From: Herpetosiphonaceae bacterium
GTDB taxonomy: Bacteria; Chloroflexota; Chloroflexia; Chloroflexales; Herpetosiphonaceae
NCBI GenBank assembly: GCA_013538855.1
Contig: JABXJS010000164.1
Span: forward strand, 1 to 42,081
Direction: 5' to 3'
Length of the DNA: 42,081 nucleotides
The translations under genes were made by a program, and so were the position numbers. Of this stretch, positions 25,731-40,369 are shown one piece after another. The stretch's first letter is position 1; each line of letters begins with the position of its first letter. Under the pieces are notes generated by a model. The model was not told where the DNA came from. It was given only the letters and a program-made list of their open reading frames with translations, and made no database searches.

Positions 25731-25806
<76 letters not shown>

Positions 25807-27043: not shown

Positions 27044-27313
27044 GGTCGTGCACCCCGCTTCGACAATAGTACTCCGGCTTACCAACCATCTCCGGCTGGG
27101 TCCAGGCAACCCCGTGACACCCGCAGTGACCGACTTACCGTTGCTGCCTCTCGGCCCTGGCGGGGTTCACCGATATGCGCCGCACGGGACCCGAACCGTA
27201 AACGCCGGTATAATGGCGGCAGTCCCACAGAACCATGCCTCAGACGGGGAATTCAATGCCAGTATGTGAGTGCTGGCTTACAGGGTATCACAAGCTCCCC
27301 ATCTAGCACGACC
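27044..27313 (-). ncRNA. ffs: Signal recognition particle RNA, long (Alu-containing) form
   Basis: About 270 nt. The ends GGTCGTGC and GCACGACC (27306-27313 and 27044-27051 on the plus strand) pair perfectly as the closing stem. The 5' part, GTGCTAGATGGGGAGCTTG...CCCTGTA, matches the Alu-type domain of Bacillus-like SRP RNA. The Ffh-binding domain IV is clear: CCAGGGCCGAGAGGCAGCAACGGTAA, written here as CCAGGGCC, tetraloop GAGA, then GGCAGCAACGGTAA. The RNA pairs with Ffh to target nascent membrane proteins. The tetraloop GAGA replaces the common GGAA but keeps the GNRA form. The 5' end fits the promoter at 27322-27349. Exact ends are inferred from the stem. Confidence 0.93.
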
Positions 27314-29486: not shown

Positions 29487-29562
29487 TGGAGCCGATGACG
29501 AGACTTGAACTCGTGACCTGCTGTTTACGAAACAGCTGCTCTGCCAACTGAGCTACATCGGC
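29487..29562 (-). tRNA. tRNA-Thr (anticodon CGT)
   Basis: A 76-nt cloverleaf with acceptor GCCGATG/CATCGGC, D-loop AGCTCAGTTGGCAGAGC, anticodon stem CTGTT/AACAG around TCGTA, T-arm GTTCAAGTC, and encoded CCA. Confidence 0.97.
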
Positions 29563-38490: not shown

Positions 38491-38892
38491 CTACTTGACG
38501 TCGACCTCGGCACCGGCCTCGACGAGCTTGGCCTTGGCGGCATCGGCCTCTTCCTTGGAGACGCCCTCTTTGACCGGCTTGGGCGCGCCCTCGACCAGGT
38601 CTTTGGCCTCTTTGAGGCCGAGGCTGGTCAGCTCGCGGACGGCCTTAATGACGGCGATCTTCTTGCTGGCATCGACGGCCTTCAAGATCACGTCGAACTC
38701 CGTCTGCTCCTCGGCGGCAGCGGCTGCGCCATCGCCACCGGCAGCGCCCATAGGCATCGCGCCCATGGCCATGACGGGAGCGGCGGCGCTGACGCCGAAC
38801 TCTTCTTCCATCGCCTTCGCCAGCTCAGCGGCCTCGACCAGGGTCAGGCCCTTGAGCTCTTCCAACAGGTTGGTAACTTTTTCGGACGCCAT
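38491..38892 (-). CDS. rplL: 50S ribosomal protein L7/L12
   Basis: A 133-residue stalk protein. The N-terminal dimerisation helices ([29 protein letters not shown]), an Ala/Gly/Met-rich hinge (about 36-62) and the C-terminal factor-binding domain ([23 protein letters not shown]...[13 protein letters not shown]) are complete. It lies downstream of rplJ by 21 nt and is followed by a terminator instead of rpoB. Confidence 0.97.
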
Positions 38893-38913: not shown

Positions 38914-39444
38914 TTAGGCGGAAGCTCCGCCTTCTTTTTCTGCGTAAGCATTCAAGATGTAAGCAATATTGCGCATCACACCGCTGAGCGCGCCGACGAT
39001 ACGGCTGGCTGGAGCCTGGACGCCGCCCAAGATCTTGGCCAGGCTGTCGGTGCGAGTTGGCATCTTGGCGATCTGCTCCAAGTCTTTGCCTTGGATGACG
39101 CTTGTACCGAGAATACCGCCTTTGACCTTGATATCTTTCTTAGCGGCTTTGAAGTAGTCGTCGACAGCTTTGGCAACGCCGGGGATGTCATCATACGAGA
39201 ACGTCAACAGGGTTGGGCCTTCGAGGAACTGTTCAACAGCTTCGTGGCCGCTGTTGCGCACAGCTAAGCGGGTTAGCGTATTTTTTGCAACGATAACCTC
39301 GCCGCCTTTGTCACGTACAGCCTTGCGCAGTTCCGCCAACTCACTCACTGTGAGGCCGCGGTAGTCGGCGACGAGCATCATCTGCATGCGGCTCATGCGC
39401 TCGGTTAGTTCGGCTACAGCTTGTTCTTTGGCTGCCGTTGGCAT
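38914..39444 (-). CDS. rplJ: 50S ribosomal protein L10
   Basis: A 176-residue stalk base protein. [22 protein letters not shown] and [11 protein letters not shown] are the family core, and the C-terminal helix (about 155-172) binds L7/L12 dimers. The start at 39444 has GGGGGTG upstream; the longer frame runs through the leader RNA. Expression is probably controlled by the attenuator at 39472-39507, where L10 or the L10-L12 complex would bind the leader. Confidence 0.96.
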
Positions 39445-39464
39445 CGAATTCACCCCCTTTCGTA

Positions 39465-39600
39465 GGAGAATAAAAAACCTCTGCACGAAGACAGCGCGTG
39501 CAGAGGTAGAGTCAACATAATCGTTGGTCAATGCACCTCGGCTGGTGGTCGTTTGCTGGACCATTAAGCTCGCCAGAGCGCCGGCTGTCTTCGGTATCAG
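39465..39600 (-). ncRNA. L10 leader (autoregulatory mRNA leader of rplJL)
   Basis: The gap between rplA and rplJ has the known L10-leader hallmarks: CCGAAGACAGC near the 5' side, a GGCGAGCTTAATGG stretch, GAGGTGCATTG, and a final hairpin with T-tract before the rplJ ribosome site. The leader element CGAAGACAGC (complement of 39584-39593) is perfectly complementary to the attenuator loop GCTGTCTTCG (complement of 39486-39495). The 5' boundary is approximate. Confidence 0.82.
39472..39507 (-). terminator. Attenuator in the rplJ leader
   Basis: On the minus strand ACCTCTGCACG-(9-nt loop)-CGTGCAGAGGT forms an 11-bp stem followed by six T residues (39472-39477), 27 nt before the rplJ ATG. It is an intrinsic terminator inside the leader. 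Confidence 0.88.
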
Positions 39601-39646
39601 TATGTAATTGTGAATAATTCTACGTGATCTTTACGAAATCGTCAAA

Positions 39647-40369
39647 CTAGCTTGGCATCGCCATATTCTGGGCGGCGGTGACATCGAGCGCGATGCCGGG
39701 GCCCATGGTGCTGGTGATCGTGGCGCTCTTGATATAGACGCCTTTTTGGCCACTGGGCTTTGCGGCTTTGATCGCGTCCATGAGCACCGCCAGATTATCG
39801 CGGATCTGATCGGCGGAGAAGCTGACCTTGCCGATGGCGACGTGGACCAAGCCCGTCTTATCGTTGCGGAACTCGACCTTACCGGCCTTGAGTTCACGAA
39901 TAGCGCGGGGCAGATCGCCCGGTGGGACAACCGTGCCGCTCTTGGGGTTTGGCATCAAGCCACGGCGACCGAGGATACGACCCAGCCGACCAACTTTACC
40001 CATCATATCAGGTGTCGCTACAGCCACATCAAAATCAACAAAGTTTTCTTTCTCGATGCGCTGAATCAGATCATCGCCGCCGACGATATCGGCACCGGCA
40101 CCCTGGGCAGCTGCCTCGGCGTCGCCCTGAGCGAACACCAGCACGCGAACGGTTTTACCTGTGCCGTGGGGTAGTGAAGCCGTGCTGCGCACTGTCTGGT
40201 CGGCGTGGCGTGGATCGATACCGAGGCGCAGGTGCACCTCAATCGTTGCATCGAAATTGGTGAACGACGTATCCTTGACAAGTTGGGCCGCCTCTTCAGG
40301 CGTATACAAGCGATCAGGATCGACCTTTTTGGCCGCTTCCAAATATTTTTTACCGCGTTGCTGTGCCAT
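39647..40369 (-). CDS. rplA: 50S ribosomal protein L1
   Basis: A 240-residue L1 protein. [33 protein letters not shown] is the N-terminal family block, [18 protein letters not shown] is the central signature, and [20 protein letters not shown] follows. It binds 23S rRNA at the E-site stalk and usually represses rplK-rplA translation. It lies 53 nt after rplK. Confidence 0.97.

Follow-up and report, generated by a model that had tools for sequence, protein, structure and literature searches.

A covarying helix between the L10-binding strand and the terminator hairpin is probably part of the rplJ attenuator in a Herpetosiphonaceae bacterium

L10 leaders, reportedly first described in a 2007 paper, are among the widest-spread of the ribosomal-protein switches. 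In the B. subtilis rplJL attenuator, as set out in the text of Yakhnin 2015 (PMC4538822), the L10(L12)4 complex binds an anti-antiterminator, and L10 promotes termination. The E. coli rplJL leader is bound by the same complex at a kink-turn, as in known L10 leaders, but there it is translation, not termination, that is controlled (as cited in the text of PMC4538822 and PMC10931766). The accessible text of a 2024 review (PMC10931766) lists Chloroflexi among the groups in which L10 leaders occur, and calls for experimental exploration of mechanisms outside the model species.

The leader described here lies on a 42,081-nucleotide stretch of DNA from a Herpetosiphonaceae bacterium (contig JABXJS010000164.1), which was analysed whole and is referred to below as the window. 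On its minus strand the order is rplA, L10 leader, rplJ and rplL, which places the leader directly before rplJ. The features, in the direction of transcription, are as follows.

39647-40369, minus strand: rplA (L1), the upstream gene, an open reading frame named from its sequence alone, with its stop at 39647
39617-39645, minus strand: promoter-like site TTGACG-17-TAGAAT, weak, with 10 of 12 consensus matches
39463-39612, minus strand: L10 leader (RF00557), whole match, cmscan 55.4 bits against a gathering score of 44
39535-39595, minus strand: anti-antiterminator (predicted L10-binding structure), ACC...GGU, from the RF00557 alignment, its role assigned by analogy with the B. subtilis text (PMC4538822)
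39593-39584, minus strand: 5' element CGAAGACAGC, the 5' strand of the predicted L10-binding kink-turn (ACC-GAA-GACAG) and the partner of the terminator loop
39566-39564, minus strand: UAA of CUUAAUGG inside the anti-antiterminator, from the RF00557 alignment
39535-39542, minus strand: anti-antiterminator 3' strand GCCGAGGU, its GAGGU at 39539-39535
39507-39497, minus strand: terminator 5' arm ACCTCTGCACG (= ACCUCUGCACG), its ACCUC, the partner of GAGGU, at 39507-39503
39496-39488, minus strand: terminator loop CGCTGTCTT, 9 nt
39495-39486, minus strand: terminator loop element GCTGTCTTCG (= GCUGUCUUCG), complement of the 5' element
39487-39477, minus strand: terminator 3' arm CGTGCAGAGGT (= CGUGCAGAGGU)
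39472-39477, minus strand: T run 3' of the hairpin, its first T being the last base of the 3' arm
38914-39444, minus strand: rplJ (ribosomal protein L10), the regulated gene, an open reading frame whose product matched counterparts at 103 of 105 loci (tblastn)
38491-38892, minus strand: rplL (L7/L12), an open reading frame named in the same way as rplA

The promoter-like site is weak because 0.4 such sites are expected per shuffle against the one found; from it, the RNA would start near 39610. Both the kink-turn sequence (ACC-GAA-GACAG / CCGAGGU) and the UAA motif are present at the level of sequence, according to the RF00557 alignment. An intrinsic terminator is present before rplJ, with a stem of 11 bp (11 of 11 pairs Watson-Crick) followed by the T run; a generic terminator scan of the window did not list this hairpin because its loop limit was 8 and the loop has 9 nucleotides. 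No stop codon interrupts the rplJ frame across the terminator as far upstream as an ATG at 39564 (38914-39564, minus strand; 216 aa), a start that would lengthen L10 by about 40 residues and is probably due to chance; a shorter in-frame extension is mentioned for B. anthracis in the text of PMC4538822. Elsewhere, the window holds a large bacterial signal recognition particle RNA (27046-27311, minus strand, 136 bits) and two tRNA genes (25734-25806 and 29490-29562).

A sequence-only reading of this DNA had proposed that the leader pairs over 10 bp with the terminator hairpin, and the complementarity is indeed exact: on the minus strand, which is the RNA strand (the two words trade places on the plus strand), the 5' element is a perfect 10-nt complement of the loop element, extending over 8 nt of the loop and 2 nt of the terminator 3' arm. 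When the upstream leader was shuffled 2000 times with dinucleotides preserved, a complement of at least 10 nt with the hairpin arose 9 times, so in a single sequence it is unusual, not overwhelming, and the case is carried by the comparative evidence. The structure line of RF00557 contains the inner stem and the terminator only. It leaves unpaired the two variable positions adjoining the core AGAC of the 5' element, so that a fit of these bases to the terminator does not follow from the L10-binding fold.

For the comparison, 280 loci were fetched and 243 leaders parsed (132 from Chloroflexota, 80 from Bacillota and 31 from Actinomycetota, an order kept in all triplets below), while 37 of the 280 loci were dropped at parsing (24/156, 5/85 and 8/39). 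Removal of near-duplicates and of hairpins scoring <18 left a dereplicated set of 89, 57 and 24 leaders. An exact-pattern scan, in which 37 of 120 contigs passed the leader filter, was inspected and left out of the counts, and a scan for close relatives by protein gave no match. Since the register must not be picked by its fit, we anchored the alignment on the invariant core AGAC:GTCT, which required AGAC in the 5' element (79, 52 and 23 leaders) and GTCT in the hairpin near the loop (24, 35 and 12).

Covariation, the check named alongside the original proposal, was found in Chloroflexota and Bacillota and was upheld by the slide and tree-pair controls. Of the 24 dereplicated Chloroflexota leaders, 19 have a fit to the terminator at the two bases adjoining the core, against 4.0 expected by permutation (p<=5e-5), as do 22 of the 35 from Bacillota, against 14.1 (p=5e-4); the 4 of 12 from Actinomycetota, with 2.4 expected, are not significant. 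When the register was slid, the predicted one gave 17/24 in Chloroflexota (Watson-Crick pairs only) and the 16 others at most 3/24, while in Bacillota it gave 14/35 and the others at most 8/35. All four Watson-Crick pairs occur at both variable positions in the core-matched Chloroflexota leaders: among the 24 rows (23 distinct), one column holds GC 7, AU 4, CG 4, GU 2 and UA 2, and the other UA 8, CG 4, GC 4 and AU 3. In the same rows, cells with a change on both sides number 23 against 8.8 when shuffled (0 of 500 shuffles), and the covariation score is 0.197 against a maximum of 0.076 when slid; two of the five pair-count measures do not rise above the shuffles (3 two-sided-change pairs for 2.9 in shuffles, and 10 further pair types for 11.0). 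In 11-14 of the 23 distinct Chloroflexota rows the outer columns do not pair; the helix amounts to a core of some 7-10 bp and not to a constant 11.

As a control for kinship, we built a quick L10 protein tree (103 tips) and greedily chose 18 leader pairs with no branch in common, the members of each pair differing at the two bases. In these tree-independent pairs a leader's own partner fits in 18 of 36 cases and the swapped one in 5 of 36, with 10 pairs better and 2 worse (p=0.019); within Chloroflexota, six are better, none is worse and one is tied, and four are full double changes in which no swapped combination fits. Five leaders of the window's order that were fetched later all carry GTCT in the hairpin, and four of them fit, three by Watson-Crick pairs and one with a wobble; the fifth, L406, fails (the last step of this check was read by eye). 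Finally, an unanchored swap test, which ignores kinship, ranks a leader's own 5' element ahead of those of other leaders (mean rank 0.323, 0.239 and 0.300). Its outcome for Actinomycetota leaders with GTCT, again ignoring kinship, is not significant (0.382, p=0.13). In leaders without GTCT the own element is still better (0.390, 0.273 and 0.239, kinship likewise ignored), which hints at other registers.

The register is unevenly spread. RF00557 was matched in 30 of 60 relatives, in 35 of 82 genomes of the order and in 154 of 400 of the phylum, as well as in 255 of 299 genomes in the phylum of Cytobacillus and 49 of 149 in that of Slackia; one family of the window's order (f4) has a match in only 6 of 41 genomes, either through loss of the leader or as an effect of a strict filter. 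Among the 30 parsed leaders of the window's order, 16 fit, 7 have GTCT without the fit and 7 lack GTCT, so that 14 do not match, including 6 of 9 from the window's own family, whereas only 10 of the 102 parsed from Chloroflexota outside the order have the register (none of these counts is dereplicated). GTCT is the commonest 4-mer of Bacillota hairpins (37/57, against a median 4-mer of 3) and only the sixth in those of Chloroflexota (24/89), where just 24 of the 79 eligible dereplicated leaders have it in the hairpin. The register is therefore common in Bacillota and in the window's order, and patchy elsewhere. In a further Chloroflexota family (f24: L214, L229, L238 and L254, with the dropped rows L247 and L263), the ACCGAAG start of the 5' element complements the terminator 5' arm (CTTCGG) and not the loop, perhaps as another register of the same idea. 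In two other sets of Chloroflexota leaders (L161, L165, L183, L185, L194, L203 and L234; L204, L211 and L230), AGAAAG or GTGACAG replaces AGACAG in the L10-binding strand, and the GTGACAG group retains a partial complement in the hairpin.

Folding of the window leader gives energies for the alternatives. Its free minimum (-45.0) is antiterminated and contains both the GAGGU:ACCUC helix, in which the anti-antiterminator 3' strand forms 5 of 5 pairs with the terminator 5' arm, and the pairing of the 5' element with the terminator loop and 3' arm; forcing the terminator (-41.5) costs 3.5 kcal/mol. With the 5' element blocked, the balance passes to the terminator by 7.0 (-39.1 against -32.1 for the antiterminator). 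In folds of the growing transcript, the loop element pairs with the 5' element as the loop emerges, from the first lengths tested, and the terminator pairs at none of the 10 lengths listed. Among leaders with a helix of at least 8 bp, the non-terminator fold is favoured in 10/16, 11/19 and 2/7 with the element free and in 2/16, 2/19 and 0/7 with it blocked, although in 6 of the 16 from Chloroflexota the terminator is favoured even with the element free; among leaders without such a helix, blocking takes the non-terminator fold from 29 to 23 of 73, from 15 to 10 of 38 and from 11 to 6 of 17. All these are single-molecule energies, with L10, the kink-turn energy, the polymerase and NusA outside the model.

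These folds, together with the position of the helices, bear on how the complementarity is used. The sequence-only reading had offered either a pseudoknot or an antiterminator that excludes the 11-bp stem. If the terminator formed and its loop also paired with the 5' element, the contact could tune termination or hide the L10 site in terminated RNA, and such an arrangement is sterically thinkable in the window leader, where 8 of the 10 complementary bases lie within the 9-nt loop and an 8-bp contact could sit beside an intact lower stem. However, 41 of the 42 helices of at least 8 bp reach into the called terminator stem by one base or more, and 33 of them by three or more (an overlap inflated by loops called as small as pairing allowed), leaving a single helix located wholly in the loop; many of the partner loops are just 3-5 nt. 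The pseudoknot would also have the wrong sign for feedback, because the terminator would be favoured with L10 absent. We therefore regard the pairing and the terminator as probably mutually exclusive, a relation that the energies also favour; of the two forms first offered, the antiterminator is the one that the covariation and the folds uphold, while a pseudoknot confined to the loop is disfavoured by the stem overlap, and we consider the pseudoknot unlikely.

The remaining alternatives would leave the complementarity without a role of its own. Attenuation might be of the ordinary B. subtilis type, with GAGGU and ACCUC as the whole antiterminator and the extra complementarity either neutral or a side effect of the terminator copying the L10-binding strands. 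The B. subtilis model, in the text of PMC4538822, works without the 5' strand, and GAGG pairs with the terminator 5' arm in the local folds of 79/89, 43/57 and 19/24 leaders (raw counts with no null). Copying of paired strands nevertheless fails for the covarying bases, which are unpaired in the L10-binding structure; in the window leader the computed GAGGU:ACCUC antiterminator fails to outcompete the terminator once deprived of the 5' strand; and no trade-off between the two antiterminator helices was seen (Spearman 0.006, -0.012 and -0.154). This explanation thus appears quite improbable to us. Chance, to which the shuffle frequency and the many short complements arising from GC-rich hairpins would lend some weight, is contradicted for the leader set as a whole by the permutation, slide and tree-pair controls and strikes us as very improbable, although it is possible for single leaders.

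Because both strands change together in many relatives, it is probable that the pairing is genuine and is a component, not annotated so far, of a known on/off switch. Judging from the alignments and folds, we think it likely that the element provides a second antiterminator helix of the rplJL attenuator, one that would set the L10-binding strand against the terminator in an L10-dependent manner. When L10(L12)4 is scarce, the emerging terminator would take up both strands of the empty L10-binding structure, GAGGU of the 3' strand pairing with ACCUC of the terminator 5' arm while the 5' element binds the loop together with the first bases of the 3' arm; the 11-bp stem would be blocked and RNA polymerase would read into rplJ-rplL. 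With L10(L12)4 in excess, the kink-turn would be held closed, both strands would be unavailable, the terminator would form and transcription would stop. The complementarity, the covariation, the stem overlap and the computed energy balance are the observed part of this antiterminator model. We infer that in this organism the 5' element is occupied by L10, that the pairing forms in time during transcription and that termination depends on L10; if L10, in the role given to it in the B. subtilis text (PMC4538822), takes the 5' element, the terminator forms, and so the sign of the regulation is right. The simple switch first envisaged was incomplete, since it omitted both the B. subtilis-type GAGGU/ACCUC pairing and the 5' element's place as a strand of the L10-binding kink-turn.

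More tentatively, L10 leaders of several phyla might use a full strand exchange, in which each kink-turn strand has its own terminator partner and a single step opens the terminator while abolishing the L10 site. The kink-turn bulge, free to vary as far as protein binding goes, might then be a lineage-specific address that the terminator loop recognises, with leaders that lack the GTCT register using other registers. Were this idea, which we hold to be possible but somewhat doubtful, true, the readthrough mRNA would be blind to L10, the decision would be irreversible and full-length rplJL mRNA would be kept from soaking up L10.

The window leader is like RF00557 (Rfam 15) in its position before rplJ, its score, the consensus UACCGAAGACAG...CUUAAU...CCGAGGU and a terminator hairpin with a T run, and unlike it in the pairing of the 5' element with the hairpin, which the Rfam structure line lacks. 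With the B. subtilis attenuator, as described in the text of PMC4538822, it shares an anti-antiterminator, an antiterminator and a terminator with overlapping strands. In B. subtilis the antiterminator immediately follows the anti-antiterminator, with which it has 8 nt in common, and overlaps the terminator by 5 nt; all of its residues are stated to lie within the RNA that was probed (+13 to +118), and that text mentions no helix between the 5' strand and the terminator loop. Termination there fell from 30 to 7% when an oligonucleotide was directed at the 5' side of the anti-antiterminator (Table 1 of the same paper), so that, on this text, antitermination in B. subtilis does not require the 5' strand; its downstream antiterminator may be strong enough alone. 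No description of the 5' element/terminator helix was met in a literature search whose reach ended short of figures, supplements and most subscription papers; absent from the Rfam structure and from the text of PMC4538822, the helix is probably a so far undescribed addition to the known attenuator. It explains the UGUCU in the terminator loops of Chloroflexota and many Bacillota, could sharpen the Rfam model and, as a covarying helix, gives a definite, mutable prediction for the switch in both groups.
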